From positions 434,001-498,000 of the forward strand of contig JAIETZ010000003.1 of assembly GCA_019744775.1 (NCBI GenBank): 64,000 nt of DNA, given 5' to 3'. This DNA is from Candidatus Obscuribacterales bacterium (GTDB lineage: Bacteria > Cyanobacteriota > Vampirovibrionia > Obscuribacterales > Obscuribacteraceae). How positions within the stretch are numbered: position 1 is the first letter of the stretch; every line of letters starts with the position of its first letter. This document shows positions 1,986 to 50,143 of this stretch, piece by piece. The notes under the pieces are model-generated. The model saw nothing but the letters and a program-made list of their open reading frames with translations. It was not told where the DNA came from and ran no database searches. A program made the translations under genes and the position numbers.

Positions 1986-2292
1986 TTAGAAGCTCGTCAA
2001 GTTTTTTCATAATCGATTTGGTATTGCCTGCAATAAAAACGGTTTTGTCTTTGTTGGTTTGTCCACGCAGAATTGTTATAGAAGATTTAGGCTGATCGAG
2101 ATATCTCGACAGGAAGGCAATCAGTGCATTATTCGCTGCGCCGTCGATTGCTTTCTCGGTAAGTTTGAGTTTGAGTCTATCGCCATAGAGCCCAGCCCAA
2201 GCTGTTTTGGATGAGCCCGGCAAAACATGCAGAGTGATGCTTATGCCATTTTCCTGAATCAAATATGGGCGAGAAATAACCAAAAACTCCAA
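1963..2292 (-). CDS. DUF167 (YggU-like) family protein
   Basis: A 109-residue protein of the DUF167/UPF0235 family, small cytoplasmic alpha/beta proteins of unknown biochemical role. The signature is clear: a leading strand, then VLPGSSKTAWAGLYGD, KLKLTEKAIDGAANNALIAFL and SSITILRGQTNKDKTV. These correspond to the family's V-P-G-[AS]-S-+ , P-[PV]-x-[GD]-x-A-N and G-x-[TS]-x-x-K blocks. The first possible start is TTG at 2292, with another TTG at 2283; neither has a strong Shine-Dalgarno, so the exact N-terminus is open. The gene is convergent with, and overlaps by 23 bases, the small gene to its left. Confidence 0.85.
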   Translation of the reverse strand: MEFLVISRPYLIQENGISITLHVLPGSSKTAWAGLYGDRLKLKLTEKAIDGAANNALIAFLSRYLDQPKSSITILRGQTNKDKTVFIAGNTKSIMKKLDELLTSDDPNA

Positions 2293-2353
2293 AGATACTT
2301 ATGTTAGCAGGCGAGTCCTTTGTAAAATGGTGGGACTGACGGAGGAATGTGCA

Positions 2354-3226: not shown

Positions 3227-3250
3227 TTTGGTTTTTCGTTGTTCTAACTT

Positions 3251-3273
3251 GTAGGGGCGCATTACGTGCGCCC
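3251..3273 (+). repeat. REP-like palindrome, variant copy
   Basis: GTAG followed by GGGCGCAT, then TACG in place of TGC, then TGCGCCC. This is the most diverged of the eight copies in the window. It lies 24 bases after the kdsA stop. Confidence 0.75.
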
Positions 3274-3330
3274 TGTCTTTTGGGCGAAGAGCAGCGTTAT
3301 GAACTGGATTGCCTTATACTTATTGGAAGA

Positions 3331-3380
3331 TTCTTCGCGGAGCCTGCCCTGAGCGTAGTCGAGTGGGCTCAGAATGACAA
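3331..3380 (+). repeat. Dispersed CTGAGCGTAGTCGA-type intergenic element
   Basis: The stretch contains GCCCTGAGCGTAGTCGAG and ends in CTCAGAATGACAAA, with a short GAGCC/GGCTC stem. Sequences of this kind (CCTGAGCG...GGATGAC) recur in intergenic regions of many bacteria. A second, shorter relative is at about 30382-30416 in this window, and both lie close to a REP-like palindrome. It ends just seven bases before the ATG of the next gene. Confidence 0.5.
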
Positions 3381-3386
3381 ATTCCG

Positions 3387-5720
3387 ATGAGACGACCGAT
3401 AATTGCAACTAGTTTAGTAATGGCGCTCGTGTCGTCAAGTTCGGGAACGGCTTGGGCTCAGACAACGGCGGTTCAGCAGCAGTCCACGCCGGATCAACAA
3501 CAACAAAATGGAGGGGACCAACTTACCCCTGCGTTGCAGTTGAATTTGCCGACGGCGCAGGAAGTTATGCAGCAGGAGCCGGACTCCATTGATGTACTCG
3601 TGCCGAAGGTGTTGAAGGCATATGGTGGTATCGATCAGTTAAAGCAGTGGGATACGGGGTATGCGTTAGCAGGCAAGCAACACGTTAAGTCAGCGTCGGG
3701 TGCGAGTAACACGTTTGCGTTTAGGCAGTATTCAAAAGGTCGCAAGTTACGTATTGAGATGCGACTTGGCGAGGCAGATACGCTCACTGTTTACGACGGA
3801 AAGAAAGGCTGGCGTCAACAGGGTGGGCAAACGATTGAGTTGCCTGTGCGTGACTTGAAGTTGTTGCATGAGGAAGCGGATCATCAATTATCTTTGCTTT
3901 CTCATTGGATGGATCCTGATTATCATTTTCGCTTGGTAGGCAGGACTTATTTCCATCAAGTTCCTGTTATGGCAATTGAAATAGAAAAGCCTGGTTCAGC
4001 CGTAGTGACGTGCTTCGTGAATCCGGATAACAATCTTGTTATTGGTTTGGCTTACGATACTGTCGATCCTGAGTTGGGAACGATTGCGCGAGTAGAAGAT
4101 GATCTACTAATGTACAAGCCGGTTGGCGAAACAATGGTGCCTTTTCAACACAGGCAGCAAATTAACAAGCAATTAGCTTTTGATTTGAACATTGATGAAT
4201 TCGCATTCAATACACGGTTGGAAGACGAGTTGTTTACGGCACCGCAGCAGATGGAAGCGGTTCATTTGTCGCAGCCGGTTACGGTTCCATTTGATTACTA
4301 CGGTGGAGAAATAATCACCAAGGTCCGAATAAATGGCGGCGAAGATTTGGATTTCCTCGTTGATACCGGTTGCGGACAGACAATTATCGATCGCAAAATT
4401 GGAGCCGAGTTTCTGCTGCAGAAAGTTGGACAGTTGACGGTGACCGGTGCATCCGGAAATTTGTCTGTGGCAACATCGCGAGTGAAGAAGTTGGATATTG
4501 GATCAGCTTCGCTTGCCGAGGTTCCTGTTTCCATTCTTGATTTGACTCCGCAATCGCGACGCATCGGCAGACGACTAGCCGGCGTGCTTGGGAGTAATGT
4601 TCTTTCGCGATTTGCGGTAAGTATTGATTATGGAAGTAAGGCGATGACGCTTTACGAAGCTGGTACTGTGCAGCCTGCTGCCGGCGCCATTGTTGTTCCG
4701 TTTGCGATGCGTCAGGGTCCGGTGGTGAAGGGTATTGTTGATGGCAAGTTTGAAGTGCAGTTTTTGATTGATACGGGATCCACTTTCAATCACCTGCCGC
4801 CAAATGTAGCGAAGCAACTTGCTAGCACGCGCGTTGAGCAGACGATTGATGCGGCTGGACTTGATGGCAATACGGTAAAACTAAATGCAATTACTGTAGA
4901 AAGTGTTGCGCTTGGAAATGAGATTGCGCGCAAGATTCGCTTTGCATATGCCGCTGATCCGGCATCGGCGACTGAAGCAAAAGCTTTAGTGCGTGTTGCT
5001 AACATGGGAATTCTCGGGAACCCATTTTTTGAGAATTACTTGCCGGTGATTGATTTCAAATCGCAATTGATATTTTTGAAGGGTGATGCGAAGCGCAAAA
5101 GCAGGCAAGAGATGGAAGCGTTAATCTCTGCCGGTGACGCTAATTTGATTATCGATAGAAATTACCGCCAGGCTGAAAATGATTACGTGCAGGTTGTGCG
5201 AATTGCGCAGCGCGATAAGGATCTAAAAGAACAGGCGATTGCATTAGGACGCTTGGGGAATATGCGACGTGTGATGTCCAAAGATCTGAAAAGACCGGAG
5301 CAGGGGCAAGCGGCGTATCAGTACTTTACGAAAGCAATTGGAATAGCCCGGCAAATCGGTGACAAGGCTGTTGAAGGGCGAATCATGGCTGATTGGTCAT
5401 TGTTGTATAGCGATCTTGGTCAGCCAATGGAAGCGAAGAAAACAATCGAGGCGGGGCTTATGCTCGCTCCTAACGATGCGCAAGTTAATGTGGATGCGGC
5501 GGTGCATTATTATCGATCCGCGATGTATGCAGACATGCGCCGACATGTGGACAGAGCGCTTGTGTTGGAGCCGACCAACTGGCAGGCGTTGTGGTACAAG
5601 GTGCGGCTGTTGGAGTTGTATAACGATGTGGGACGCGAGCACGACACGTTGAAAGAGATACTGCGGTATTACCCGTCGTCTTTTTTAGCGAAAGAGAAGT
5701 TGGGTAAGTTGGGGGATTAG
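3387..5720 (+). CDS. Secreted protein with LolA-like domain, two retropepsin-like aspartyl protease domains and TPRs
   Basis: A 777-residue protein. Residues 1-25 form a Sec signal peptide ending AWA-Q, followed by a Gln-rich linker. Residues about 60-290 resemble the LolA/outer-membrane lipoprotein-sorting beta fold (KAYGG, VYDGKKGW, RLVG and FVNP blocks). Two retropepsin-like domains follow: FLVDTGCGQTII with Asp at about 326, and FLIDTGSTFNHL with Asp at about 462, each followed by a GxLG-type second motif (GVLGSNVL, GILGNPFF). Residues about 575-777 contain TPR-like helices. Two domains, each with its own DTG, could pair within the chain into one pepsin-like active site. Likely periplasmic or surface located. 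The N-terminus has no strong Shine-Dalgarno. Confidence 0.8.
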   Translation: MRRPIIATSLVMALVSSSSGTAWAQTTAVQQQSTPDQQQQNGGDQLTPALQLNLPTAQEVMQQEPDSIDVLVPKVLKAYGGIDQLKQWDTGYALAGKQHVKSASGASNTFAFRQYSKGRKLRIEMRLGEADTLTVYDGKKGWRQQGGQTIELPVRDLKLLHEEADHQLSLLSHWMDPDYHFRLVGRTYFHQVPVMAIEIEKPGSAVVTCFVNPDNNLVIGLAYDTVDPELGTIARVEDDLLMYKPVGETMVPFQHRQQINKQLAFDLNIDEFAFNTRLEDELFTAPQQMEAVHLSQPVTVPFDYYGGEIITKVRINGGEDLDFLVDTGCGQTIIDRKIGAEFLLQKVGQLTVTGASGNLSVATSRVKKLDIGSASLAEVPVSILDLTPQSRRIGRRLAGVLGSNVLSRFAVSIDYGSKAMTLYEAGTVQPAAGAIVVPFAMRQGPVVKGIVDGKFEVQFLIDTGSTFNHLPPNVAKQLASTRVEQTIDAAGLDGNTVKLNAITVESVALGNEIARKIRFAYAADPASATEAKALVRVANMGILGNPFFENYLPVIDFKSQLIFLKGDAKRKSRQEMEALISAGDANLIIDRNYRQAENDYVQVVRIAQRDKDLKEQAIALGRLGNMRRVMSKDLKRPEQGQAAYQYFTKAIGIARQIGDKAVEGRIMADWSLLYSDLGQPMEAKKTIEAGLMLAPNDAQVNVDAAVHYYRSAMYADMRRHVDRALVLEPTNWQALWYKVRLLELYNDVGREHDTLKEILRYYPSSFLAKEKLGKLGD

Positions 5721-13050: not shown

Positions 13051-16000
13051 TTGCGCTCGATTATCTGTTTAGTTTTAGCTCTGGGACTGGTTTTTCAATC
13101 TAGTTGGACTATGTCTGCCTATGGTCAGGATGCTTCGCCTCCGGTTGCCGATAATAGTGCCGCCGGTTTGAATCTAGATTTAGGGTCTACTGATCGCAAT
13201 GTGGCTGCTTCTACGGTTCTGAGTCCGGCAGCTTCGGCGACGATTAACATTGGTGGTCTTAACCGAGTAGTGAGCGCTGCCGACATGTTGACGGCAGCTG
13301 AGTTCGTAGCTGTTAGACAGGTAATGCACACAGGGACCCAGTATTTGCAGCTTAATGACATGGGGGCTGCAATCGGCGGCGGAATGAGGCTTAACGCCAA
13401 TTTGGCCAGCCAAATTAATAGCCTGGTCATTCCCACAAACGTGCATGCTTCGCAAAATGCAGCTGTTTTGCAAACTCTGAACTTAGCCGGTAATTTCACC
13501 AATTCCGGAGTCTACTCAATTCTGTCCACAAATTCTGCTGTTACTTCGGCGGCCATTAATGCCTCCAACATTTACAACAATGCCGGCGCTTTAATTTCGT
13601 CGACCTTAGCTAATTTGACCCTGCATGCAGTTAACAACATAGTCAACGCCGGTACCATTATGAGTGCCGGCAACCTCAATCTGACAGCCGGCGGATCTAT
13701 AAGCAATATGGGTCAACTTGCGGTTATGCAGGCAATGAATACAATGAATTTACAGGCGGCAAGTGTAGTCAACCAGGGACAAATTGCGGCCCAGCTCGGA
13801 AACATCAATGCACTTACGGCTCATGTAACCAATTCAGGCATCATGCAGTCGTTGTCCGGCAGTGTTAATATCCGCAATCTAGTAGGCACACAGCTAGCTG
13901 TCGACGGTATTCTGGGCAGCATCTCGGCTGGGCACAATATCAATTTATCAACGCTGCCAACCGTCAAGGATCTTAATGGTGAGGTCTTATCGAAAGGACT
14001 AATTAGCGTCAGCGGCAATACTCTGTCCGGACAAGCAATTAACCTCACTAGTCCTGAAGGCATAGTAAATGTGCAAGCGGACAGACTAAATGGTCCGGTC
14101 TCTGTTTCGGCAGGAGTTGCTTACGTCGGTGCCAAACATGGCAACTTGAGCTTGAGCAAAATGGAGTTAACCGGCGACCCAATATACTACGCGCAAGGTG
14201 GAGACTTGGATTTAGGTGGATTGTTTTCTGGTGGTTCCACCTTCTCTACAAGTGGCGGCGATTTCATAGCGCTGGCTTCAGGTGACATCAAAGCAACGGG
14301 AGCACCCAGTAATGCGTTGATTGATACAACACCGAATTTGCAATTTGGTTCTATAAAAATGTACGCCGGCGTAGATTTCAGCGTAACAGGTGGAGCAAGC
14401 CCGATTACTTGCACTGATTGTGCACCGCTCTACACAATAACCGGAACAAGTACATCAGGCGGTGATATTAACTTGCCCACCGTTAGCTTGAAGACATCCC
14501 ACGACTTGTTCTCACCTCAAGTAGGAATTCATCTGGAAGCTCGCGATAATGGCTCGCAGACAAAGGGCAATATTACCGTCGCTAATATAACCAACTTGGG
14601 TATTGCTCAACCAAGTTCCCCGTGGCCTGGTTATTTCAATATACACAACACTGTAACTGCCGATGGCAATGTATCACTCGGTTTCATAGACAGCAGTGGA
14701 GTGCAGGGGGGGGATTCCAGTGCTGTCGGTGGTGGCTATGGTGGCGGTGTCGTCATTACTTCCAGCTATGGCAATGTCACGGTAAACGGGGACATTAGTT
14801 TAATGGGTGGTGGCAGTAGCGAAGGTAGCAATAACAGCAACTCAGGTCCAGGAGGCAAAGGCGGCATACTCAGCATTGTCGCCATGCAGGGCAGTATTCT
14901 AGTCGATGGCAATATAAATACATTCGGTGGCGGTAGCGGCGGCGGCGGTGGTGCACGCCTGGCTGGCGACGGCGGCGGCGTTACACTTATGACTAACAAT
15001 GATTCGATCACTGTTAATGGTGCCATCAATAGCTCCGGTGGTGGCGGTGGCGCCGGCGATGGTTCTTCCGGCGGCAGCTACGGCGGCTACGGCGGCAATA
15101 TCTCTGTCTTTACGCGATCGGCAATTACAATCAACGGACCGGTTCTAGCAGCTGGTGGCGGCAATGGTGGGTCAGGTGGTGGAGGCGGCAGCTTAGGTGG
15201 TGGTGGCGGCGGCGGTGGCAATGCGAGTGTCTCCGGCAGCGGAGGGGGCGCCTTCGGAGTCGGCGGACAGCCGGGCGCCGGTGGTGGCGGTTACTTTGGA
15301 GGAGGCAGCAGCGGCATCGGCTCTGGCGCACATGGTGGTGGCGGCGGCGGTGCAACTGGTGGCAATGGCGGTTATACGGCTGGTTCCCAAACAGGAGAAG
15401 ACGGCTCTTTGGGGTTTGGCGGCAATGCATCAGGTCCAGGTGCGGCAGGGCAAGACGCTGGGACAGCAAAAGGCGGCAGCATAAGCCTATCTGGTTCGCA
15501 AGTTCAAGTTACAGAAACAGTTGATTCAGCTTTTGGTTTTTCAACATCACCATTTGCTTCCTATTCTGTGTACGCAGGCGGTGGCGGTACAGTAAGTATT
15601 AGTACGCCTACTGCTGTATTACCAAATGGTGATTATGAAGCAGGATTAGCTACGACTCCTGCTTATTTGGGCTCCAGTTCCTTTACTGTTGGTGGTAGTG
15701 GTTCTTCCGGAGCCATAAATGCCGGCAATGGAATATTTATCAACAGAACAAATGTTGGCACTGATGTAAATTCCGGCACGACAGCAGCCGCTTCAAATTC
15801 AATAACCATCACGAAAAATGGCGGCTCGGCAGTCATTAGTGATGGAGACTTAGTTACCCCGGGAGACTGGATGGCAATAGTGCAAACCGTGCACGGCGGT
15901 CAACAAGTAACCGTAGACGGCACAGGAAATATTACAGCAGGGACTATTGACTTGGGAATTACCTACTATCCAGGGGCAGGCTTCACAAATCTCGTATTGC

Positions 16001-19000
16001 CGGCTGGAATTAGTGCTAGCACTGACGTGCCTACAGTAAAGGTGATGGGTTCTGCTGATTTGGGCAGCACTCTGGATCTCCTGTATACGGGTAATGAAGG
16101 TTATGACGGATGGGCTTCGGACTCTCTATCAATTGGCGTTGGTGCAACTCTGAATGCCGCAGCGGCTCTTTTCATACATCCCGGCTCTCTCTTAAATATT
16201 GATGGATCACTTCATGCACCCTACTACATACAACTGGGAGAACACAGAGATCTGACCTTTACCGGCAATGGCGACATCTCGGTTAATCCCGCAGGCACTG
16301 GTATTGCTGTTTTTGTATTTGCCAACAGCTCTGATTTAACAGCAACGATGAACGGATCGCTAACTCTCAATGGTGGACTGTCAGGCGAATTCTATATATA
16401 TGCTCCAACATTCGAGATAGCTGCCAATCAAACCCTCACGATTGGACAAGGTCAGACACAATTTGGAATTCAAGCAAATAATGTCGTATTTGGAGCTAAT
16501 TCCGCTATCACTATAGTGCCCAGCAATATGAATATGTTATTTAGTTATGTTCAAAGCGTAACCTTGCCTACAGGCTCTTCCGCGACCGTTACAACCAATG
16601 GCGGCACTATTACTTTTGACTATCCCTTTGGCACCTTGCACTTCGTTAAGTCGTTACCAGCCGGTAACGCAACCTTAAACTTAAACGGTGGCGACTCATT
16701 CATCAATGGAAATCCTGTTTCCGGACAAGGCGGCTGTTTAATTTGCACCGACCACACGCTAACAATTAACAGCAGTGGCTTTCTAACAACCTATAACAAC
16801 GAGTGTTCTATTATTCCATATCAGCTACTTAGTCTGGATTTGGTCAATGACCCAGCAGCCGTTGCTGCCATCATTGAACTGCAAACTTATGGCATATTAG
16901 GTGGCACTCTCATCGAAAGCGGTGGTGTTGCCACGGGCGGCAATGTGATCATTGCTCCAAGCAATTTGTCGTCCACCTTGACGGCATACAACATTCCTTC
17001 CAATGTCACAGTTACGATGCAGGATTTTACTGCAGGCTATGGCGTTAATATACAAATCACTGGCTCCAGTACGACATCTCAGGCAATCCTTGCCGGGACT
17101 AACGAGTTTGTAAGTACAGGCGGTAATTCAAGCCCATCGCTGAATGTGTCTTCCAGTCAGGCTGGTCCTGTTTTTGTTGTAGCCCCATCCGGTCTAATTA
17201 CTAGTGACGACACGATTACAATCAGTGCTAATGGCGACATGAGTTTTAGCGGACTGGTATCGGCCACGACGGTTAACCTGACTACTTTCAATGGTGGAAG
17301 TGTTTACTCGTCCAGTTACTGTGGCACATGTGTCATCCTTGCTACCACGCTTAATTTGCAGGTCACTGGCAGTGTTGGCACTCTTCTAAATCCTTTGACT
17401 ACTCAGGTTAGTAATCTCACTGCTAACGTCAATAATGCAGCATACGTAAGCAATTATGGTGACCTCAGCCTGGGCCTTTCACAGGTGGGTGGAACCTTTC
17501 AGGTATTGAACAGCGGTAATTTATCGATTGACTCGTACGTGCAGGCGACAGATATTGACTTTAGGACAACGTCAGGATCAGGCACCATTACACTGAATAA
17601 TTCGTTCCAAGCAAATAATTCTGTCAATTTGCAAGTAGATGGCACTGGGAACATAATCCAAGCATCCGGGTCGATTGCAGCCATATCGGCAACTCTTAGT
17701 TCGCGCGGCGATATTGGAGCCAGTGGACAGCCAATCAATGTACAGGTAGATGAAATAGCGGCTCACGGCTCCAATGTGTATATCAACAGCAGTAATTTTA
17801 ATCTCTTACTGAACTCTTCTGCTGCTACTGACTATGCCGGCAACTATGGAACATTTGAATTGACTGCATCTGGACGATTGACTGTCAGTGGGTCAGCCAG
17901 TGTATATGGTGGTACCGTAACCTTGACAGATGGCTTCGAATCCTTAGTGGACGCTGGTGCGGTAGTTCAATCATTTGGGTCTGGCAATTCTGTTACATGG
18001 AATACCACGACTTTACACAATAATGGGTCGATCTTGGGACAACAGGTAAGTATAGTCAGCAATTCTAATCTTGCGGTTGATGGCAGCGGGCTAATTGGCA
18101 TTAACAATATGCCTAATAGTGGTGTGACATTTAGTGGGGCACAGGCGATTGTAAGCTTGGTCAGCCTGTCCGGTGGTGATGTTACCGTCACTCAAGGCAG
18201 AATAGATGGACTGATTTCTAGTTCTCGTGTTACACAAGGCGCGTTTAGTTTTGCCTGCTTCTGCTTCGCTGCTAGCTTTACTGATGATGGTACGCCACCG
18301 ACTAATTTCTCGGTGACTGTAAACCAAGGCGCGTTATATGGCAATCATATTAAAGCTACCGGTTCGCTTGATTTGATTAATACGGCAGGTGATATTCGTA
18401 TATATGGTCAAACGGGTTGGTCGCCTGGCACGGTGTCCACATCGGGAGCAGGTAATATATCACTTCAAACTAGCGGCTCTTACACGATATTGCTTGATCG
18501 CGGCTCAATAATTGACTCAAGTAATGACTTGGATATTAGCACCAGTTACTTCTACAACAATACTTCTGCAACTTTTATGTCCGGCAACCCGTCTGTACAT
18601 GCCGTAAACACTATTACTTTTGATAATCCAGCGGGTTTCGGTGTTTCCGGCACCGGCGGTATGTGGACTGGTACGGCGGGAGCCGAAGGTACCGGAGCTA
18701 TTAATTTCAATGCAACGAATGGTTCGATAGTTGTAACCAGCGCTGTCTTAATGGGCACGGTGAATGTTGCTGCTTCTGCAACTAACGGGCTGTTTGTTTT
18801 AGATGTAGGTAATACAAGTAATTTTACGGCGGGATCTATGGCCGCTACTGCTCCGAGCGGTTTTCCAGCTCCGTTTTTCGCCACATATGGGACTACCGGT
18901 GTTACTTACTGGCAAGCACCCAGCTCAATGAATATGATTGATCCAAGCCCCACACAAGGCGGTGGACTTTTAGTTCTATCCACTGTTGTACCTGTTGATC

Positions 19001-22000
19001 CATCTAACCCGTCAGGTGACACAATAGATGTAGTAATTAATGGAACCCAGGTTACTGGGGGTCCAACAGGTGTAATTTTCCCTGTTAACTGTGGTGGTAG
19101 CTGCGTTAATTACACTGGTTCCGGTATGGAAATATTGTCCACCTTAGACATATCTGGATTGCAGACTGGGCTATTGGTTGTGCACTCGAATATGCCCGTG
19201 ACTGTAGATGGTAATGCGACTATCTCCAATACAGGCAACACGGTTTTCAATACGAGTACACTTGGTGTACTCCAGACTTGTAATTTGTGTGCTGGTGGTA
19301 TTCAGCCGGGAATTGCAATCAATACCAGCGGTGGAGCACTGGTGCTTGGTGGTGGGCGGGGTGGATTTGCATCTCAAGCGGATCTTGTAACACTGGGCGC
19401 CCTAAGTATGACCGTATCTGGTGGACCATTTATTGAATATGGCTTGGTGCAGGGTGGTAGTGTCGTTATAACTGGAAGCGCCACACGCTTATTCAGTGGT
19501 GATATTCAAAGTACTGCCGGTGATTTTATTATCAATAACGCTGGTCAAATTGATATTTTCAATATGGCTGCTACTGGCGGTGGTGCATCGGTGACGCATA
19601 CTGGAGCCGGCTACATTGATATGAACTTTAGTTCAATCGTTGTTAGCGGTAATCTGTCAGGAGGCAATGTTTCAATCTCCATTACTGATAACACCATAAA
19701 TGGTGGACTGTATATGAGGATGGGCAGCGATCTATTCTCTAATTCCGGTGGTGATGTCAATGTAGTTACCACTGGAACTATTCAGACTAATACCGGTACA
19801 AAGATCATTTCATCAGGCGAGCTTAACTTAACTTGTAACCTTTGCCAAGCTGCTCCTGTCTTCAACAATTCTACAATTGCCAGTTTTGGCGACTTAACTA
19901 TAACGAATACCGCAGGTGATTTGACTTTTAATGCTACGAATGTCTATACATCAAATGCAGACGTATACATCAATAACCTGTCCGGCAATTTGGTATTTGA
20001 TTTGCCAACCACAGTTATTCGTGGTGACCAATTAATATTTGTAGATACCGTATTCGGTACATTTCCGTACACTCCATATCAGGGCGGGAGCGTGTATGTA
20101 AGTAATTCTGGAGGGAATTTGACGGTTTCTAACGGAGCATTAATCGCTGGTTCTAACCTTATTGATGCAAATGTGTCCATTAGCAATACCGGTAATCTTA
20201 GTTTACTGAACTATGGACGAGTATCGGCAGAAAATGGTCGTGCAATTGTCCGAAATAGTGGCGGTGATCTGACAATCGGCGCCGGCTCCGGTATCAGTGT
20301 TGCAGGCAATGGTGTTTCTGTTGATAATTACATCCTGCTCTATAATAGTGGCGGAGCGATTAATATCGATACCCAGACCAGCGAAGTCTTATTTTCTAGC
20401 CCAAGCTTCGTGTTGGTAATGAATAACCAAGATATTTCATTGACTGGATTTGGTTATAGCTCGATCGATACTCCGCAAGTGACATTCATCAGCACAAATG
20501 GCAGCGTTCAGCTGTCGCAACACGATATGTCCGGCACGTCTATATCAGGACAGGCGGCGACGAATTTCTTGGCTGCGGTTACCGATGGTGCCATGAATGT
20601 TGACACGATTCTGGCAAATAATGGCAATATCGCCTTAACCTCTAGCAGTCGTTCCAATGTAGTTGATGGCTCAATTAATATAAATTCGGGGGCAACACTT
20701 GTTGCTAACAATGGGACGGTAACAGTTGAAACTTGTACTACGGGTACTATAAGCATTGGAGCAAATGTTGTTATTACAGCTCTCAATGGTGCTAGTGCAT
20801 TCGGTGATGTTTACATTATTTCTGGTCCACTTCCCTCCGCTCCGGTGACCGGTGCAACCCCTGCTAATGTTGTTGCTTCTCAATCCGGTGGAGGACAAAT
20901 ATTCTTTGGTAGTCAAAGTATTTCTGCTTCTGCTCCGAATAATTTTGTTACTGCTATCGGCGGCAATGTTGTCTTTGATGCGGCAGCTGTCACGGATATC
21001 AGTTTGGGTGGTAATGTCAATATAAATGCGGCAGTTGCAGGTGTCTCACCGTTATTGACCAGCTTGGATTTGCAAGATTCGTCTACGGTCAGTCAAATTG
21101 TGGCATTGCAAAGTTCCGGACTGATTGGTGGGGTATTAAATGTAGGTGGTGGTATTGCTATTGGTGGTTCTGCTGATATTTCAGCATCCAGGCTCGCGCC
21201 CCTTTTGACCGCTCTGAACTTGCCGGCAAATGTCTCTATTCAGTTTCTTGATTTCGGAACCGTCATGAGACCAATTACGGTTAATTTGACTGCTGCCAGT
21301 ACTACAACTCAAGCAACAGTATCCGGCTCCGTATTCTTTTCCGATGGCGCCAACTCGAATGTTTATGTGAATGTGCTCTCTAACCAGGCTGGACCGGCCG
21401 TATTGGTTGGTACTACTGGTGAGCTTGTAAGCGACAAATTACTTAGCGTTACTGCTAATGGAGATATTGCTGCCAATGGCATTGTGCAAGCTTTCGATCA
21501 ATTGGTGATAGAGACTGTGGAGGCAGGAGGCAATATTGCTATTGCTGCCGATATCACTGGGCGCGACGTGCTCAGAGTGGAAACTGATACGGCAGGGAAT
21601 ATTTCGCAATCGGCCGGCACCTTGTTTGGTAATCAGATATATTTGCTCACCCACGGCGGCGATATTGGAGCACCTGGCAGTCGTGTTTCGTTAACGACAT
21701 ATGATAGCGGCAACAACCTGCTATTCGCTCAGACTTCTGGTAATGCATATTTGACTTATCAGGGAAATGTAAGTCTACAGCGTTCCTTTGTTGGTGATTC
21801 TAATGTATTGGATTTGACGACAACTTGTGACGGATCAATTATCATTGATGGTGACTATGTTCTAGGTGGCAGCACAATCAATCTAACCGCCGACGGAACG
21901 GGGGGTATTTTTGAAACATTCAATAATCAAGTCTTCCAAGCTGACACTATTAATTTGACATCCGGTATTGGTGATATAGGTGGTCCTAATGGCCCAAGCG

Positions 22001-25000
22001 GATCTGATCTGACTGTGGGTACGGAGACAGGCACCATCACCGCTAATACGGGTGGAAATGTCTATATACAGATGAATTTTCTGATTCTATGCTTGGGTTG
22101 TCCGTCCGGCACTTCGGATCTTAGACCGCAACCACCGTCCTCGCAAGCTACTACCTTGAATGTTGGATCTTCGCATGCCACCAACATCATGCATATCAGT
22201 GCCGGCAATCTAGGTGTCAATATTCTTGATGGCGCTGTCATTTCGGTAGCTGGTCAAGTAGATGTTCCTGGTGATTTATCAATTAGTGCAGGCAACGCAG
22301 TCGGATTTACGCCACCGGATTTGACAATTGGTACAGGAGCTATTCTACAGGTAGCGAATACGGGCGCCATTACGCTCAATGCCAATGGACTTGGAAATAT
22401 TGTGAACAATGGCCAGCTGATAACACCTACTGCTGGTTCGGGCGTGCTTAATGTCAATGCTTCGTCTATGACCGGTACCGGAAGCATTAGTGGCAATGTC
22501 GTTTTTAATAGTGGTACTGTTAGTGTTTCCCAGACCTCAATTAGTGGCACTGTTAGTGGGTCATCATTCGGCAGCGACTTTTCGATTACTGTTGCTAATG
22601 GTCTGTTGCAAGTCGGTAGTATCAGCTCCGCCAACAACATATTTATAACCAACAACGGCGGTGATATTGCCGTTATCGGTGCAGCAATTGATGCTAACTT
22701 AGGCACGGGAGTTATTACTATGAGTACAGCCGGTTCATTCGGCGTTCTTATCGAAACGGCTGGACTCAGTGCGGCAGATATGGTGTTCAACACCGGTCAT
22801 TTTGCTGGTGACTTTAATATTATTGCCTCCAACAGCATTGCCATATCCAACACTGGTTCGGTGGTGATGGGCTTGAATGGTAATTTACAAGCACCCACAA
22901 TGACGATTTCTTCTGTCAATGGTTCAGTTACGGCTTGGATGGAAGAAGCACTTGGAACAACAATTAACGTATCTGCCCAGAATAATCTTTTGGTGGATAT
23001 TCGTTATGTAGGTGGAGTTGGAGATGCGACAATGAATGCCGTATCGCCTTATGCTGTTAACACTATAACCAATATCGTAGGTGGCGCTGCCCAGTTCTCT
23101 GGTGGCACTGTAACGTATGCTGCCAATTCTGCTCAAGTCTTTTTTGATAGCAATTTGCCAGGGGCGGCTTTAATTGTCTTGAACTCTAGTGGGACACCGG
23201 CAAATGTCACTGTTAATGGCAGCACGGTAACCAGTGGTAGCAATATCGCCGCCGGATCTATACCTGTATGTTGCGCTCTACCAGTGTTTAATCACGGAGT
23301 GGGAACTATCGCTGGAGACTTTGGCATTGACAATACGGCCGGCGGAGATTTGACGATTCACCTAGGGGAAGCATTATACGTCACAGGCAACAGTACAGTG
23401 AGCAGTAACAATGGCAACATGGTATGGGATGGTGGTACAGGTTACAGTGGTAACGCTCTTATCGGTGATGGTACCGTGACGATTGCTAACGGCAACAGTG
23501 GATCAAGTGTCGCTGGCGGTAATTCGACTCTCAATTCATATGCAGCATTTTTCCCGAATTTAGCCACAAGTACATTCCAGCTATCTAACAATTCGGGCAA
23601 CCTGAAGTTTATGGAAAATTCCTTTGTCTTCGCCAATGGGGCTGTCAACGTTAATAATAATGGCGGCAATATCCAATTGGATTATCAATCTTATATTTCC
23701 GGTGCCGGATATATTGGTACAGCTTGTTCTACCTGTGCGACTACCGTTACAAATAGTGGTGGTAGTATCATTGCCTATGGCTCGCAATTAGAGACCATTG
23801 GTGCTGGATTCTCAAGTAATATAGATGGTTATGGCGACATAACGAGTATCACCAATTCTGGTGGTGACATAATCCTAGGCGCAGGTGGTGCAATCCAAAG
23901 CTTTGGTACTACACTGACGGTTGGCAATACTGATGGCAATATAGTTGTTGACGGTGCTTGGAATAATACAGGTTGGAGTATCATCAATTCTGATACTGCA
24001 GCGACAATAGATGTGAGCCAAGATGGACTCACGGGAAATATTGTGGTATCGAACGGGGGCTCCATTCAATCAGTAGGTGGTGCTGTACACCTTGTTACTA
24101 ATGCGGGACATAGCGGCAATATTTTAATTGACGGTCCGGGCAGCTATATCTCTGGTGCAGCTGGAGTTACGGTAGAGCATGATGGTACCGGAAATATTAC
24201 AGTTACTAACACCGGCCATATCGGTTTGAATTTAGAAACTATCGAGATCTATACTACTATCGGGAATATAATTGTAAGTAACTTAGGCAGCCTTTTGGCT
24301 TCTAGTACTTTATCTGTGACAGCTGGCACCGGGAATGTGATATTAAATACCGGTGCTCAATTGATAGCTGATTCGACAATAACTATTACGGCAACCAATG
24401 GTAATGTGGTCATAGATACGACTCCATTTTCCAGTACCGGAGTCGCTGCTACACCTGTTAATCCATCAACAGCGGTTAGTGCTAATGGAAATGTTTCCAT
24501 TTCTGCTGGTAATGGTATTGTCGTCACTGGTTACGGTGATAATTCGTTGTCCGCTGTAAACGGAACGATTAACTTCAGCAGTGCTGCCGGAAGCGTAAGT
24601 GTGACGCAGTTTGGACTTACCTCGGTAATTACTGGTACGGCAGCTACCACTTTTGCTGTTACTGCGACCAATTCCAGTTTGAATGTTGGCAATATATCAA
24701 CTAATCCTGGTGGACTCAATCCCGACGGTTCTATTACTCTAATTGCCGGCTGTGTTTGCCCGCCGGCTGCTGCCACGACGTTGACTGTGACAGCCAATTC
24801 CATAATCACCGCAAGAAAAGGAAATGTAATTCTCCGCAATGCCGACGTTGCTCAAGGATCAATCTTCTTGGACACGAATTCCGAAGTCAATGCTCGACAG
24901 TTAGGCAGCGGTTTTGGCAACGTTTATATTGTAGTTGGCACAATTCCTGTCAATCCTGTGGCAGGCTTGACGCCGGCAAATGTTATCTCCAATCCCACTC

Positions 25001-28000
25001 TTGGCGGTCAGGTGTTTTACGGTGCTAGTGGACTAACTGCCAATGCACCGGACAATACTGTTAATGCCCCAGGAACAACGGTAGTCTTTGATGCTCCCGG
25101 TAGTGCTGCTATTACTATGAACGGCAATGTTCAAATCAATTCGGTGCCGGTCATAACTTTGACCAGCTTGGATTTGACGGATCCAACGGTGACCAGTGAC
25201 ATTTTAGCTCTCATTGCGCAGGGGGATATCGGCGGCAATTTGATTGTTAATGGCAGCGGTGTTGCCACTGGCGGCTCGATAGTCATTACGCCTGGAGTAC
25301 TCTCTGTAACTATTACGGCTGAAAATATTCCGGACAATGTGACAATTCAATTCCAAGGCTATTCAGCTTCTGATGTTTTAGCAATTAACATTACAGCTGC
25401 CAGTACGACTAAGCAAGTAGTTATTTCAGGAACGCATGAGTACATTGCCGGCGTTGGTGCATCCGATGGAGTAATCAGTGTTACTTCTAATCAAGCAGGA
25501 CCGGTGTTCCAAATTACTGGCACCGGTTTACTCATCAGTGACGGTAATCTGACAGTGACGACGACTGGTGGCGATTTTAGCTCTGCCGGCAATATCATAG
25601 CTGGAGGTACAACCACGATAACATCCGATGCAGGTGTGACGCTTAATAATTTGACTTCTGCAGGCACCGTTGCTGTGACGGCTCAAGCCGGCAGTATTAC
25701 ACAAACAGGTTTTACCGATGCTTCCTTTACTGGTGCCAACGGTAATGCTGCCAGTATCACCTACCAGGCAACAACTGGAATTAGTGGCGTTTCACTGAAT
25801 GCGACAGGAGGAACGGTGAGCGGCGATGGTGGTTTGATTCTTGTTAATACTACCGGAGGTGCAATAGCATTTAGCAGCTTCGTAGATAGTTCGGCTCGAG
25901 GTGGTGGTCGTGCGGGTGATGTCACGTTAACGGCTGATACTGACATAACAATTCACTCAGTGAACGCTGTGGGCGGACAAACACCCAACGTTAATGCTCG
26001 TGGCGGTGACATTTTAATTCAGTCGAATAGCGGATCTTTAATTGCTACAGGTACTACACCGAGATTTGTAGATAGTTCCGGCAGCGTATTCTTTTCAGGA
26101 ACCGGGCAAGCAAATGCCGGCACAATTACTGTTACCACTCCTGGCGGCATCGTTGGTACAGGCGGCGCTATAAGTTTCCGTGCTGAAGGTGGGCATGATG
26201 GAGGCAATGGTGCCAATATCATAATTACCACCAATGGCAGCGCCGAACTTGATTTTGTGAGCAGCTCAGGCTCCACAGTTTCACCGACACCAACGGCAGC
26301 TGGAGACGCTGGTGATATAACAATTATCGCTCCTGGTGGCATCACCTTGGTAGACGCTCGTGCTCAGGGCGGCACTGCCGGAGGGTCCGGTGGCGATGTG
26401 GTATTACAGGCGGCCAATGGCGGTATTAATGTCACCTTGTTTGTTTTCACCAATGCTGTGGGTTCAACAGGCACTGGCGGCTTGGTGGATATAAGCGGTG
26501 ATGGGGATATAGTGATTGGTAATATAGGTGCACTGTCAATATTGGCTTATGGCGGGTCAACTATCGGTAATTCCAGCACGGTAACGGTTGGCTCGGTAAA
26601 TGGGCTCATCAATATCTCCGGACTAATTAATACTAGTGTGACCACGGATGGTAATGCCGGCGCTATTAGTCTGGATGCAGAAACCGGCATTATCAGTGGT
26701 GGTCTATCAGCAGCCGGAGGAACGACTTCCGGAGACGGTGCCGATGTTACGGCAACGACGGCAACAGGTGATATTACTATTAGTTCGTTTGTCAGCGCGC
26801 GTGCTAAGGGGCAGGGCGATGGTGGAGATATTGCTCTGACGGCCACAGCCGGCAATGTTGCTGTACTAGGCACAATTGGCACTGGTGCTGCTATTGCTTC
26901 CAATGGTGGAGGAACGGGCAGCGCTGGACGCATTGATGTTCTCTATGGTTCGACAACTCCATTTGTAATCGACTCTGCAGGTGTTGGCATAACTAATGGA
27001 GCGCGAGGCAATATTACAGCGATAGCTACAGGATCTGGGGATGGCAATGTTGTAACAATTCAAAATACCATTGATGATACGGTAGTCACCTTGAATGGCA
27101 CCATCGATGTGACGTCCGTCACTGGTACGGGTGGATTTATTTGGTTCGTCGGTTCGACCGGCTTTAATTCAACGATTACAGGTAATGCTTCCGGTTTAAT
27201 AAGTGGTCTGCTGCTTGGTTCGGGCGATAACTTTACACTGACGCTTAATCGTCCGGATACTGCTTTACTAGTAGCTGCAATAAATTCGAATGGACTGATT
27301 TCCATAAATAATAGTGTTGGGACGTCTTCCATTAATGTGCCTGTTGGAGAAAATATAAGTGGTGCCGGCGGTGTAACGTTAACTTCCGCCTCGATTGTTA
27401 ATGACGGATTACTGAGTTCCATTGCAGGGCAAGTGACACTGAATAATAGTGCTAGCCTATCTGTTACTGGAGCCGGTACAATTACTGGATTGACAGCTGC
27501 ATTTAATAGTACGACAGGATCTGTAACTGCCTCTCAAGGCACTATTACCGGTACTCTATCAGGGACTGCTCAAACGAGTTTTTCAACTACAGCAACCGCT
27601 TCGGGTCTGACAGTAGATGCAATTAGTGCAACTGTAAACACCGTGACCTTAAATGCTGCCGGCGGTTTGTTATCCGTTGTTGATAGCGGCGATATTTCTG
27701 CCGGACAAAGTGTGTTCATGACCGGAGGTACGGGGGTCGCCATTGGCAATACGGTGCAAATTACCGGCGGCATTGTTGGTGGTGCCTTGAACGAGTTTAG
27801 TCTTAATATGCAGGACTACACTTATGCGCAGATAGCCAGCCCGGGTGGCATTCTAATTACCAGCACTACCGGAAATGTTGTGACCGGCAATGGCGTGGTG
27901 ATGGATGCCTTTGGTGGCAGTATTGGTTTAACTAGCGCCGGCGATTTGACTTTTGGAAACTTGAACGATCTGTTTGCTCAAGGAGCAAATATTTGGATGC

Positions 28001-29943
28001 AAGCATCAGACAATCTGGATATTCCCGATGCCACAATTACATCTGTAGCGCGGTATGTAACCGGCAGCGTGACTGTGGACGGCGTGAACATGCAAAACTT
28101 CACAGGTGGCGGTATAGCCATATTTGCCGGCACTTCATTGTCGGACTATAACGCATACTTGAAATCAGTTGCTGTAAATGACAGAGTGCAAAGTGATACC
28201 GGCACCTATGTAAATAGTGGTGCCACTGTCACTGGCGGTGGAATTGTAATGCTCAATGGAGCTTGGATCGGCTTGGAAGCACCAGCCGGAGGTGTGCTTA
28301 ACCTGAATAATGTCATTTTAGCTGCCGATGGTGGTGTGATTTCCATAGATCCGCCAGGAATCATAAATATCAATGGAGCCATTTTTGGAGCTGTCGGCCC
28401 GGCTATTGTGCCGTTGCCGCTTCCGCCTGCGCAACAAGCACAAGCACAGGCTCCGGCTGCCCAGAATCCATTTTTGGGAGCTGCTTTGCCTGGCAATGGT
28501 CCTGTAAATCTGCCACCTGATGGAACAGCCATTCAGACCGATGTATCCGATTTTGCTAGTCCTGTTGAGAAAAACGCTTCGCAAGTTATGTCCAGAACGG
28601 CACAGATAGAAACGGTCGTAACACAGTCTGCTGCCTGGGTATTTGTTTCCGGCAATTGCCAACCGTTTTTAGCGCAATCTGATGATTCACTGCTTTTTGG
28701 TTGTGGCGGCACAATGTTTGCCAACAATAAAGAAGATGGCGGTGTAACAATGCGAGAAGGACGTTTAGTGATGTTGACGGCCAACAAGTCGTTAAAGGTA
28801 AAAACTGAGATTGGTGATGTGGCTATTCCTGCAGATAGCGGTGGTATTGTAGAACAAAAACCAAATGGAGTATTTAGGCTTGTAAGTTTATCTGGACAGG
28901 ATGCCGAAGTTACCTTAAGGCGCGGTGACGAAACTTCTCAGATTCTTGTGAGACCCGGTGAAGAATTGGTTGTCGCTGACTCGGATATGGCTGAAGAGGA
29001 ACTGATTCCTGTCGATGGGGTAGATAGAGTGGCTGTGGCAGGTACTATTAAAGTGTCCGGCTTGCAAGTGAAAAAATCGCAGTACGACAAAAAACAAATG
29101 TTTGAGCGCGAGCAGCTTATTCATTGTGGTATGGGCAGCACTCTGATGTCTAATTACAAACGTCGTGTAGCTAAGCTCAAGGAAGAAATGACTGGAGAAT
29201 CGAGCAAGACTATCTCCAGTGCGCCTCCGGCGCCGGCAGGCAATAATGTGATGCCGATGGGCGTAGTGCCGTTAAACAAGAAAGACAAGGAAAAGATCGG
29301 CAGTGCTGATGTGTATCGTAAGATTGGCTATGAGAAGTCTCAGTCAATGGAAATAAGTGCTCCTGGGATTCGTGGCGTTACCACTGACTACGGCACTTTT
29401 AAATACGTCGGCAGTGCTAATTTGACATTTGAACAACCAGGAGTTGTTAGTTTGGCGACTGGTGAGCTGCTAGTGGCTTCGCAAAAAGCCACCGTTGTGC
29501 GTTGCGGTGAGCACCTTGTTTCGGTTGACCCTGGTGCTGTAGCGCTTATATCTAACGATAATGGATTCATTAGAATAACCAATCTATATGAAAATTCGGT
29601 AAATGCTGTTCGTGCTTGTACTGCCGGTAAGATGATCAGCCTCAATGCAGGCAAACAAGTAATGTTTGGTCCAACATCCGAGCATGTTACCCGCGCGTTA
29701 GGCGCCGATCCCATTGCCCGCAGACGCAGTATGTATTTCGACTTGCCGGGCGGCAAAGGCGCGTCACGTTGCGAAATATCGCTTGTCTCGCTTCTGCAAA
29801 ACACGCCAGTTCTAACACACCTGTTGAAGAGCACGGACCTTAATGATCAAGCATTAAGAGAACGAGTAATTAAGATGGCTGCTTGCTTGGCTCAGACAAC
29901 CTCGACACATGGACCATATACAACTGTTAATGGACAGCACTAG
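13051..29943 (+). CDS. Giant secreted FHA-like beta-helical surface protein, 5630 residues, with FecR-like tail
   Basis: One unbroken frame of 16.9 kb. It starts at TTG 13051 with AAGGGTGG upstream. Residues 1-26 form a signal peptide (ending AYG-Q). From about residue 30 to 5110 the chain is built of short G/N/S/T-rich strands (NLTLHAVNNIVNAGTIMSAG type), as in filamentous haemagglutinin and other right-handed beta-helix exoproteins. Residues about 550-810 are a glycine-rich block. A 118-residue module starting SLDL recurs at about 1261, 2671 and 4039. A Pro/Gln/Ala linker (about 5117-5138) leads to a globular C-terminus (about 5175-5630) with two FecR-like beta domains. CxxC or CC motifs recur. 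Probably a surface adhesin or matrix protein. No TpsB partner is in the window. Confidence 0.85.
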   Translation: MRSIICLVLALGLVFQSSWTMSAYGQDASPPVADNSAAGLNLDLGSTDRNVAASTVLSPAASATINIGGLNRVVSAADMLTAAEFVAVRQVMHTGTQYLQLNDMGAAIGGGMRLNANLASQINSLVIPTNVHASQNAAVLQTLNLAGNFTNSGVYSILSTNSAVTSAAINASNIYNNAGALISSTLANLTLHAVNNIVNAGTIMSAGNLNLTAGGSISNMGQLAVMQAMNTMNLQAASVVNQGQIAAQLGNINALTAHVTNSGIMQSLSGSVNIRNLVGTQLAVDGILGSISAGHNINLSTLPTVKDLNGEVLSKGLISVSGNTLSGQAINLTSPEGIVNVQADRLNGPVSVSAGVAYVGAKHGNLSLSKMELTGDPIYYAQGGDLDLGGLFSGGSTFSTSGGDFIALASGDIKATGAPSNALIDTTPNLQFGSIKMYAGVDFSVTGGASPITCTDCAPLYTITGTSTSGGDINLPTVSLKTSHDLFSPQVGIHLEARDNGSQTKGNITVANITNLGIAQPSSPWPGYFNIHNTVTADGNVSLGFIDSSGVQGGDSSAVGGGYGGGVVITSSYGNVTVNGDISLMGGGSSEGSNNSNSGPGGKGGILSIVAMQGSILVDGNINTFGGGSGGGGGARLAGDGGGVTLMTNNDSITVNGAINSSGGGGGAGDGSSGGSYGGYGGNISVFTRSAITINGPVLAAGGGNGGSGGGGGSLGGGGGGGGNASVSGSGGGAFGVGGQPGAGGGGYFGGGSSGIGSGAHGGGGGGATGGNGGYTAGSQTGEDGSLGFGGNASGPGAAGQDAGTAKGGSISLSGSQVQVTETVDSAFGFSTSPFASYSVYAGGGGTVSISTPTAVLPNGDYEAGLATTPAYLGSSSFTVGGSGSSGAINAGNGIFINRTNVGTDVNSGTTAAASNSITITKNGGSAVISDGDLVTPGDWMAIVQTVHGGQQVTVDGTGNITAGTIDLGITYYPGAGFTNLVLPAGISASTDVPTVKVMGSADLGSTLDLLYTGNEGYDGWASDSLSIGVGATLNAAAALFIHPGSLLNIDGSLHAPYYIQLGEHRDLTFTGNGDISVNPAGTGIAVFVFANSSDLTATMNGSLTLNGGLSGEFYIYAPTFEIAANQTLTIGQGQTQFGIQANNVVFGANSAITIVPSNMNMLFSYVQSVTLPTGSSATVTTNGGTITFDYPFGTLHFVKSLPAGNATLNLNGGDSFINGNPVSGQGGCLICTDHTLTINSSGFLTTYNNECSIIPYQLLSLDLVNDPAAVAAIIELQTYGILGGTLIESGGVATGGNVIIAPSNLSSTLTAYNIPSNVTVTMQDFTAGYGVNIQITGSSTTSQAILAGTNEFVSTGGNSSPSLNVSSSQAGPVFVVAPSGLITSDDTITISANGDMSFSGLVSATTVNLTTFNGGSVYSSSYCGTCVILATTLNLQVTGSVGTLLNPLTTQVSNLTANVNNAAYVSNYGDLSLGLSQVGGTFQVLNSGNLSIDSYVQATDIDFRTTSGSGTITLNNSFQANNSVNLQVDGTGNIIQASGSIAAISATLSSRGDIGASGQPINVQVDEIAAHGSNVYINSSNFNLLLNSSAATDYAGNYGTFELTASGRLTVSGSASVYGGTVTLTDGFESLVDAGAVVQSFGSGNSVTWNTTTLHNNGSILGQQVSIVSNSNLAVDGSGLIGINNMPNSGVTFSGAQAIVSLVSLSGGDVTVTQGRIDGLISSSRVTQGAFSFACFCFAASFTDDGTPPTNFSVTVNQGALYGNHIKATGSLDLINTAGDIRIYGQTGWSPGTVSTSGAGNISLQTSGSYTILLDRGSIIDSSNDLDISTSYFYNNTSATFMSGNPSVHAVNTITFDNPAGFGVSGTGGMWTGTAGAEGTGAINFNATNGSIVVTSAVLMGTVNVAASATNGLFVLDVGNTSNFTAGSMAATAPSGFPAPFFATYGTTGVTYWQAPSSMNMIDPSPTQGGGLLVLSTVVPVDPSNPSGDTIDVVINGTQVTGGPTGVIFPVNCGGSCVNYTGSGMEILSTLDISGLQTGLLVVHSNMPVTVDGNATISNTGNTVFNTSTLGVLQTCNLCAGGIQPGIAINTSGGALVLGGGRGGFASQADLVTLGALSMTVSGGPFIEYGLVQGGSVVITGSATRLFSGDIQSTAGDFIINNAGQIDIFNMAATGGGASVTHTGAGYIDMNFSSIVVSGNLSGGNVSISITDNTINGGLYMRMGSDLFSNSGGDVNVVTTGTIQTNTGTKIISSGELNLTCNLCQAAPVFNNSTIASFGDLTITNTAGDLTFNATNVYTSNADVYINNLSGNLVFDLPTTVIRGDQLIFVDTVFGTFPYTPYQGGSVYVSNSGGNLTVSNGALIAGSNLIDANVSISNTGNLSLLNYGRVSAENGRAIVRNSGGDLTIGAGSGISVAGNGVSVDNYILLYNSGGAINIDTQTSEVLFSSPSFVLVMNNQDISLTGFGYSSIDTPQVTFISTNGSVQLSQHDMSGTSISGQAATNFLAAVTDGAMNVDTILANNGNIALTSSSRSNVVDGSININSGATLVANNGTVTVETCTTGTISIGANVVITALNGASAFGDVYIISGPLPSAPVTGATPANVVASQSGGGQIFFGSQSISASAPNNFVTAIGGNVVFDAAAVTDISLGGNVNINAAVAGVSPLLTSLDLQDSSTVSQIVALQSSGLIGGVLNVGGGIAIGGSADISASRLAPLLTALNLPANVSIQFLDFGTVMRPITVNLTAASTTTQATVSGSVFFSDGANSNVYVNVLSNQAGPAVLVGTTGELVSDKLLSVTANGDIAANGIVQAFDQLVIETVEAGGNIAIAADITGRDVLRVETDTAGNISQSAGTLFGNQIYLLTHGGDIGAPGSRVSLTTYDSGNNLLFAQTSGNAYLTYQGNVSLQRSFVGDSNVLDLTTTCDGSIIIDGDYVLGGSTINLTADGTGGIFETFNNQVFQADTINLTSGIGDIGGPNGPSGSDLTVGTETGTITANTGGNVYIQMNFLILCLGCPSGTSDLRPQPPSSQATTLNVGSSHATNIMHISAGNLGVNILDGAVISVAGQVDVPGDLSISAGNAVGFTPPDLTIGTGAILQVANTGAITLNANGLGNIVNNGQLITPTAGSGVLNVNASSMTGTGSISGNVVFNSGTVSVSQTSISGTVSGSSFGSDFSITVANGLLQVGSISSANNIFITNNGGDIAVIGAAIDANLGTGVITMSTAGSFGVLIETAGLSAADMVFNTGHFAGDFNIIASNSIAISNTGSVVMGLNGNLQAPTMTISSVNGSVTAWMEEALGTTINVSAQNNLLVDIRYVGGVGDATMNAVSPYAVNTITNIVGGAAQFSGGTVTYAANSAQVFFDSNLPGAALIVLNSSGTPANVTVNGSTVTSGSNIAAGSIPVCCALPVFNHGVGTIAGDFGIDNTAGGDLTIHLGEALYVTGNSTVSSNNGNMVWDGGTGYSGNALIGDGTVTIANGNSGSSVAGGNSTLNSYAAFFPNLATSTFQLSNNSGNLKFMENSFVFANGAVNVNNNGGNIQLDYQSYISGAGYIGTACSTCATTVTNSGGSIIAYGSQLETIGAGFSSNIDGYGDITSITNSGGDIILGAGGAIQSFGTTLTVGNTDGNIVVDGAWNNTGWSIINSDTAATIDVSQDGLTGNIVVSNGGSIQSVGGAVHLVTNAGHSGNILIDGPGSYISGAAGVTVEHDGTGNITVTNTGHIGLNLETIEIYTTIGNIIVSNLGSLLASSTLSVTAGTGNVILNTGAQLIADSTITITATNGNVVIDTTPFSSTGVAATPVNPSTAVSANGNVSISAGNGIVVTGYGDNSLSAVNGTINFSSAAGSVSVTQFGLTSVITGTAATTFAVTATNSSLNVGNISTNPGGLNPDGSITLIAGCVCPPAAATTLTVTANSIITARKGNVILRNADVAQGSIFLDTNSEVNARQLGSGFGNVYIVVGTIPVNPVAGLTPANVISNPTLGGQVFYGASGLTANAPDNTVNAPGTTVVFDAPGSAAITMNGNVQINSVPVITLTSLDLTDPTVTSDILALIAQGDIGGNLIVNGSGVATGGSIVITPGVLSVTITAENIPDNVTIQFQGYSASDVLAINITAASTTKQVVISGTHEYIAGVGASDGVISVTSNQAGPVFQITGTGLLISDGNLTVTTTGGDFSSAGNIIAGGTTTITSDAGVTLNNLTSAGTVAVTAQAGSITQTGFTDASFTGANGNAASITYQATTGISGVSLNATGGTVSGDGGLILVNTTGGAIAFSSFVDSSARGGGRAGDVTLTADTDITIHSVNAVGGQTPNVNARGGDILIQSNSGSLIATGTTPRFVDSSGSVFFSGTGQANAGTITVTTPGGIVGTGGAISFRAEGGHDGGNGANIIITTNGSAELDFVSSSGSTVSPTPTAAGDAGDITIIAPGGITLVDARAQGGTAGGSGGDVVLQAANGGINVTLFVFTNAVGSTGTGGLVDISGDGDIVIGNIGALSILAYGGSTIGNSSTVTVGSVNGLINISGLINTSVTTDGNAGAISLDAETGIISGGLSAAGGTTSGDGADVTATTATGDITISSFVSARAKGQGDGGDIALTATAGNVAVLGTIGTGAAIASNGGGTGSAGRIDVLYGSTTPFVIDSAGVGITNGARGNITAIATGSGDGNVVTIQNTIDDTVVTLNGTIDVTSVTGTGGFIWFVGSTGFNSTITGNASGLISGLLLGSGDNFTLTLNRPDTALLVAAINSNGLISINNSVGTSSINVPVGENISGAGGVTLTSASIVNDGLLSSIAGQVTLNNSASLSVTGAGTITGLTAAFNSTTGSVTASQGTITGTLSGTAQTSFSTTATASGLTVDAISATVNTVTLNAAGGLLSVVDSGDISAGQSVFMTGGTGVAIGNTVQITGGIVGGALNEFSLNMQDYTYAQIASPGGILITSTTGNVVTGNGVVMDAFGGSIGLTSAGDLTFGNLNDLFAQGANIWMQASDNLDIPDATITSVARYVTGSVTVDGVNMQNFTGGGIAIFAGTSLSDYNAYLKSVAVNDRVQSDTGTYVNSGATVTGGGIVMLNGAWIGLEAPAGGVLNLNNVILAADGGVISIDPPGIININGAIFGAVGPAIVPLPLPPAQQAQAQAPAAQNPFLGAALPGNGPVNLPPDGTAIQTDVSDFASPVEKNASQVMSRTAQIETVVTQSAAWVFVSGNCQPFLAQSDDSLLFGCGGTMFANNKEDGGVTMREGRLVMLTANKSLKVKTEIGDVAIPADSGGIVEQKPNGVFRLVSLSGQDAEVTLRRGDETSQILVRPGEELVVADSDMAEEELIPVDGVDRVAVAGTIKVSGLQVKKSQYDKKQMFEREQLIHCGMGSTLMSNYKRRVAKLKEEMTGESSKTISSAPPAPAGNNVMPMGVVPLNKKDKEKIGSADVYRKIGYEKSQSMEISAPGIRGVTTDYGTFKYVGSANLTFEQPGVVSLATGELLVASQKATVVRCGEHLVSVDPGAVALISNDNGFIRITNLYENSVNAVRACTAGKMISLNAGKQVMFGPTSEHVTRALGADPIARRRSMYFDLPGGKGASRCEISLVSLLQNTPVLTHLLKSTDLNDQALRERVIKMAACLAQTTSTHGPYTTVNGQH

Positions 29944-30107: not shown

Positions 30108-30362
30108 ATGATCACTAGCAAACCCGGAGAGAAAGACTTTCAGTGGAAGTTTCGACTTTTCTTTTGGTCGGTATTTGTTTTATTGCTTTTGATTTTGTTG
30201 TCGCTGCATTTCTTTATGGCGCTTGCCTATGAGCAGACAATTGAGATTTTGACGCGTGTGCAGTCGATGGAGTCGACGGTGGAAAAGATGAAGATGCGTC
30301 TTGAGGAAGAGGGCGGGACGGCGGGTAAGCCTGCTCCGAAGATGATCAAGCCGGTTAAGTAG
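30108..30362 (+). CDS. Small membrane-anchored coiled-coil protein
   Basis: An 84-residue protein with a short cytoplasmic N-terminus, one transmembrane helix (FFWSVFVLLLLILLSLHFFMALAY, about residues 18-41), a coiled-coil of about 25 residues (ILTRVQSMESTVEKMKMRLEEE), and a Lys/Pro-rich tail. The ATG at 30108 has AGGA eight bases upstream; the longer frame starting at TTG 30075 is less likely. It lies 165 bases after the giant gene on the same strand, so a shared role at the envelope is possible but unproven. Confidence 0.68.
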   Translation: MITSKPGEKDFQWKFRLFFWSVFVLLLLILLSLHFFMALAYEQTIEILTRVQSMESTVEKMKMRLEEEGGTAGKPAPKMIKPVK

Positions 30363-45828: not shown

Positions 45829-45830
45829 GG

Positions 45831-46319: not shown

Positions 46320-46333
46320 AAAAGGAACTATAA

Positions 46334-47455: not shown

Positions 47456-47474
47456 AAAGGACGCTGGAGCCCCT

Positions 47475-50141: not shown

Positions 50142-50143
50142 TT

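Follow-up and report, generated by a model that had tools for sequence, protein, structure and literature searches.

A giant open reading frame in Candidatus Obscuribacterales belongs to an order-specific family of secreted, probably fibrous proteins with FecR-like tails

The genome of this Candidatus Obscuribacterales bacterium is a 4.10-Mb assembly in 13 contigs, of which we analyzed positions 434001-498000 of contig 3 (64,000 nucleotides, hereafter the window). Obscuribacterales are an order in the non-photosynthetic cyanobacterial class Melainabacteria/Vampirovibrionia. Members of this class carry diderm-envelope genes with lipopolysaccharide (PMC4040986). A single forward-strand frame of the window encodes a 5630-aa protein consisting of a signal peptide, an N-terminal domain (N-domain), a long shaft, and a C-terminal tail. 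The features, in window coordinates, are as follows.

13051-29943, + strand: coding sequence, 5630 aa, TTG start; open for 5630 codons plus the stop
13051-13125, + strand: Sec-type signal peptide, residues 1-25 (junction AYG/QD), read from the sequence; recurs in paralogs
13126-14169, + strand: N-domain, residues about 26-373, of an order-specific family (HMM A2, E 5e-112)
14170-28434, + strand: shaft, rich in repeats, residues about 374-5128; matched by neither Pfam nor NCBIfam families
15706-16773, + strand: second, diverged copy of the N-domain, residues about 887-1223 (HMM search)
16825-17370, + strand: first of three duplicated shaft blocks, residues 1259-1440; ~39-45% identical to the third (segment self-comparison)
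20743-21492, + strand: second of the three blocks, residues 2565-2814; matches the third at E 1e-46
24856-25710, + strand: third of these blocks, residues 3936-4220 (segment self-comparison)
28387-28590, + strand: Pro/Ala/Gln-rich linker before the tail, read from the sequence
28669-29139, + strand: tail domain 1, residues 5207-5363, predicted FecR-like fold (HMM A1, E 2e-4; jackhmmer, E 6e-33; pLDDT ~70-89)
29341-29931, + strand: tail domain 2, residues 5431-5627 (HMM A1, E 4e-73)
43201-44529, - strand: stand-alone secreted 442-aa protein with a signal peptide and both tail domains, lacking the shaft

Short proteins resembling the stand-alone 442-aa tail protein are also encoded elsewhere in the genome, at 263064-264788 of contig 2 and 366124-366813 of contig 3. 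Just downstream of the giant gene, an 84-aa protein with a single membrane span is encoded at 30108-30362 (+ strand); it was not found near the other giant genes of this genome, described below. A sugar-nucleotide/surface-polysaccharide cluster occupies window positions 44770-54588, and includes GFO/IDH/MocA, hexapeptide transferase, DegT aminotransferase, GDP-mannose dehydratase-type, and methyltransferase genes.

The original prediction of one intact frame of 5630 codons was borne out. The frame has no in-frame stop, which has a chance probability of ~10^-132 given the base composition of the window; the remaining five frames over 13051-29943 contain 141-479 stops apiece. The TTG start sits directly 3' of an in-frame TAG, and is supported because a signal peptide follows it in frame and because relatives keep the hydrophobic stretch and the AQD/AQE junction. 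As predicted, there is a signal peptide: read by eye it is RSIICLVLALGLVFQSSWTMSAYG, followed by QD, and matching signal peptides with an 'AQDA/AQEA' junction recur in the paralogs. A contig search using a profile of the conserved tail sub-alignment gave, as closest relatives, Candidatus Obscuribacterales bacterium SW_9 and a public MAG labeled Chloroflexi (SBAT01000209.1, locus L059), the tail of which is ~57-60% identical to that of the 5630-aa protein. Over 483 aligned tail codons, the window and L059 sequences differ at 33%, 23%, and 62% of first, second, and third codon positions, so that the 5630-aa frame is under purifying selection.

To model the N-domain, residues 1-600 were submitted to AlphaFold2 with three relatives. 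Residues 41-370 form a ladder of short β-strands of the β-helix type (pLDDT mostly 80-97) with a single helix, residues 82-94, near its start; the N-domain, residues about 40-370, is accordingly predicted, with high confidence, to be a β-helix. The β-helix style proposed for the whole protein is thereby modeled for this part, but not beyond residue ~390, where the model is poor (low confidence over residues ~390-600). Foldseek comparison of the N-domain model with the PDB and with viral models returned nothing significant, partly because half of the 600-residue model is of low confidence. Its weak, non-significant PDB neighbors include the TPS secretion domains of HMW1, EtpA, and HxuA, and there were weak fil_hemag_20aa matches in 7 of 18 N-domains and weak TIGR01731/PF05594 matches in N-domains of relatives.

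The shaft is rich in G, S, T, A, V, and N, and its hydrophobic pattern has a weak 8-residue signal with no sharp coil period. The ~39-45% identity among its three internal blocks shows an old internal duplication. Seven C-x-x-C motifs are dispersed along the shaft, the first of which (CTDC at residue 454) is kept in relatives; cysteine is rarer in most paralogs than in the 5630-aa protein. Scans of the entire protein, in pieces, against Pfam and NCBIfam found nothing credible; as no model in either collection covers the family, its genes would be annotated as hypothetical.

The tail was modeled as 450 residues with six sequences. The model comprises two β domains (pLDDT ~75-89) joined by a disordered linker, with helices after each; those at the C-terminus of domain 2 are conserved (K-M-A-A...H-G-x-Y). 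The only significant PDB neighbors of this two-domain model in Foldseek were FecR-type domains, namely BDI_1681 (4m0n; E 6.8e-6 and 2.7e-5) and the cell-surface signaling domain of PupR (E 1.5e-4), with probability 1.0 and rmsd 2.4-3.5 Å over ~125 columns; matches after the FecR-type entries were chance-like. The tail is thus predicted from its model to be a two-domain, FecR-like structure, which gives a fold to the separate C-terminal tail that had been noticed in the sequence and for which structure prediction had been proposed. By sequence, neither the window tail nor the other tail members reach the Pfam cut-off for PF04773 (FecR), the tail of one paralog having a sub-threshold match, and profile searches against PDB sequences gave nothing credible. 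Other Pfam names that fell on 25 tails (GGA_N-GAT on the C-terminal helices, PIF1, and others) were scattered, weak, and unrelated, and were judged to be chance. A true FecR domain does occur elsewhere in the genome, in L071 (contig 5, position 219313), a secreted protein of 599 aa that also has a long repeat tail rich in PPTT.

Searched against the genome, the last 515 residues of the protein gave matches at 24 sites, most of them where giant frames end, so the tail is homologous across a paralog family. This family numbers 20 genes that together span 377.5 kb, or 9.2% of the assembly. Half of them (10 of 20) encode at least 5000 aa; the frames include ones of 25,007, 12,519, 10,865, 8554, 7405, 6567, 5765, and 5547 aa. 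Two are cut by contig ends, and all 18 complete members have, by the N-domain and tail HMMs, the same plan of signal peptide, N-domain, long repeat shaft, and tail at the exact C-terminus. The number of tail domains varies, with one in some paralogs and two in others. The N-domain HMM loses true matches on full-length giants, which are recovered when the scan is limited to the first 600 residues. The largest member is a single 25,007-aa frame (contig 2, 174643-249666, - strand, loci L023-L026) with a signal peptide, the N-domain, and two tail domains, and contains no N. On contig 6 (20935-105525, + strand, loci L033-L037), four family giants of 5765, 7405, 3942, and 10865 aa lie in tandem, with gaps of only ~180-260 bp. 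The 5547-aa member (L042, contig 4, 187370-204013, + strand) repeats the N-domain about five times over its length. No recurring partner gene was found beside the giants: of three window neighbors tested, none recurs near other giants.

Among 60 relatives, the N-domain was found in 31, all from the two families of Obscuribacterales, with up to 41 matches per genome, and the tail in 35, all within the order; none of 21 sister-family genomes had the N-domain. When 244 genomes sampled from the phylum were searched, where the genomes listed are of the same class and other classes may be thinly sampled, only the present genome had the tail. No relatives were found among viral contigs and plasmids. 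The window protein is therefore a member of a family confined, as far as searched, to Candidatus Obscuribacterales. Because L059 (SBAT01000209.1) carries this family, its Chloroflexi label is probably wrong.

The original prediction described the protein as FHA-like. In style the comparison stands: the FHA/TpsA exoproteins (FhaB, HMW1, EtpA, HxuA) likewise have a signal peptide, an N-terminal capped β-helix, a long irregular β-repeat shaft, and large size. Membership of that group does not. When HMMs for the TPS domain and for hemagglutinin repeats were run on the window protein, no model matched; PF05860 gave nothing at E 1, and PF05594 and TIGR01731 repeats were absent. Unlike FHA/TpsA proteins, the window protein has an N-domain of its own family and no TpsB in its genome or order, and the giants end in a FecR-like module where FHA has a prodomain. 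The lack of a TpsB gene nearby, noted at the outset, extends to the whole genome and the searched order: TpsB (PF03865) was found in 0 of 27 and PF05860 in 0 of 39 Obscuribacterales genomes, the present one included. The same searches found PF05860 in 9 of 21 and PF03865 in 9 of 13 sister-family genomes, which therefore serve as a positive control for absence in the order. These sister Vampirovibrionia, of the same class, have β-helix exoproteins with PF05860 and PF03865, neither of which the Obscuribacterales family has.

Other export routes were also considered. The autotransporter barrel PF03797 is absent from the genome, control genomes being positive, and the tail model is not a barrel, which does not fit a type Va autotransporter. 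As neither the TPS domain nor TpsB was found in the searched genomes of the order, the missing exporter concerns the whole order and not only the neighborhood of the giant gene. Type I secreted giant adhesins of the LapA/RTX type have no Sec signal and have C-terminal RTX repeats; this candidate was rejected, since the window protein has a signal peptide and neither RTX nor any other Pfam family. The T9SS marker SprA (PF14349) had no match in the genome, but the controls were likewise blank. The genome encodes two secretins, one Tad-type and one PilQ/GspD-like orphan, neither linked to the giants, and one Omp85 protein, presumably BamA.

The family might still consist of strongly diverged TPS proteins, with an N-domain that is a TPS domain too distant for PF05860 to detect, and with export through either the single Omp85 or a TpsB that has itself diverged. 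A capped β-helix directly after the signal peptide, the TPS domains among the weak structural neighbors, and the existence of that Omp85 are consistent with this reading. We nevertheless consider it unlikely, since PF05860 and PF03865 are found in sister families and nowhere in the order, no transporter gene adjoins the window gene, and the essential BamA is the simplest identity for the sole Omp85. It is also conceivable, although less likely than not, that Obscuribacterales have replaced TPS with a new outer-membrane export and anchoring pathway, in which the N-domain would address the protein and the FecR-like module would hold or sort it.

On balance, the frame probably encodes an Obscuribacterales-specific giant secreted β-helix fiber protein, most likely a surface adhesin or cell coat. 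The protein would be exported by Sec to the periplasm and may then pass through the outer membrane N-terminus first, by a non-TPS route. If each coil takes ~21 residues and adds 0.48 nm, the shaft would fold into a fiber of ~0.1 µm, and that of the 25,007-aa paralog into one of up to ~0.5 µm. The FecR-like tail could stay at the periplasmic face as an anchor or sorting element. FecR-type domains (FecR/PupR) are periplasmic and bind the signaling domain of an outer-membrane receptor, and docking of the tail to an outer-membrane partner is plausible for this reason. In its predicted fold, the tail matches BDI_1681 and the C-terminal signaling domain of PupR. It differs from FecR-type proteins in that it closes giant secreted proteins, comes singly or as a pair with additional helices at the C-terminus, falls below the Pfam cut-off by sequence, and lacks the anti-sigma part. 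The fibers may serve in attachment or biofilm; outer-membrane crossing, surface exposure, and adhesion are all putative.

The giants could instead stay inside the outer membrane, as periplasmic or cell-wall-bound polymers held by their FecR-like tails. The periplasmic location of FecR-like domains in known proteins with this fold, the lack of a known outer-membrane exporter for the giants in the genome, and the existence of small stand-alone secreted tail proteins would all agree with this; fibers of 0.1-0.5 µm and 20 diversified copies would be better suited to surface contact than to a narrow periplasm, and we judge it improbable. An artifact of assembly or annotation, or a gene in decay, as the 13-contig assembly of an uncultured lineage and the TTG start might suggest, is scarcely credible given the improbability of the frame's openness, the codon-position bias against a relative, and the recurrence of the protein plan in independent assemblies.

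Giant secreted proteins and β-helix adhesins are already known kinds (PMC11573180, PMC10066038, PMC12863079). The giants of Omnitrophota and the giant surface proteins of Apilactobacillus likewise have very long frames, occur in clusters, and have a proposed role in attachment (PMC10066038, PMC12863079). Omnitrophota giants are reported to have many transmembrane helices, to be poorly conserved, and to have few annotated domains, whereas the Obscuribacterales family is defined by its conserved pair of N-domain and tail. A literature search of partial coverage found no description of the pairing of N-domain and FecR-like tail, of the missing TPS system, or of the genome share, so that the Obscuribacterales giant family is apparently undescribed. 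Its largest member, which has a signal peptide, is 25,007 residues long and exceeds the size, 20,000 residues, above which signal peptides have been reported to be unlikely (PMC11573180). Up to a tenth of the genome is apparently given to secreted giant fibers of one family, and the conserved N-domain and tail make the question of their export directly testable in an order across which, as searched, the usual exporter is missing.
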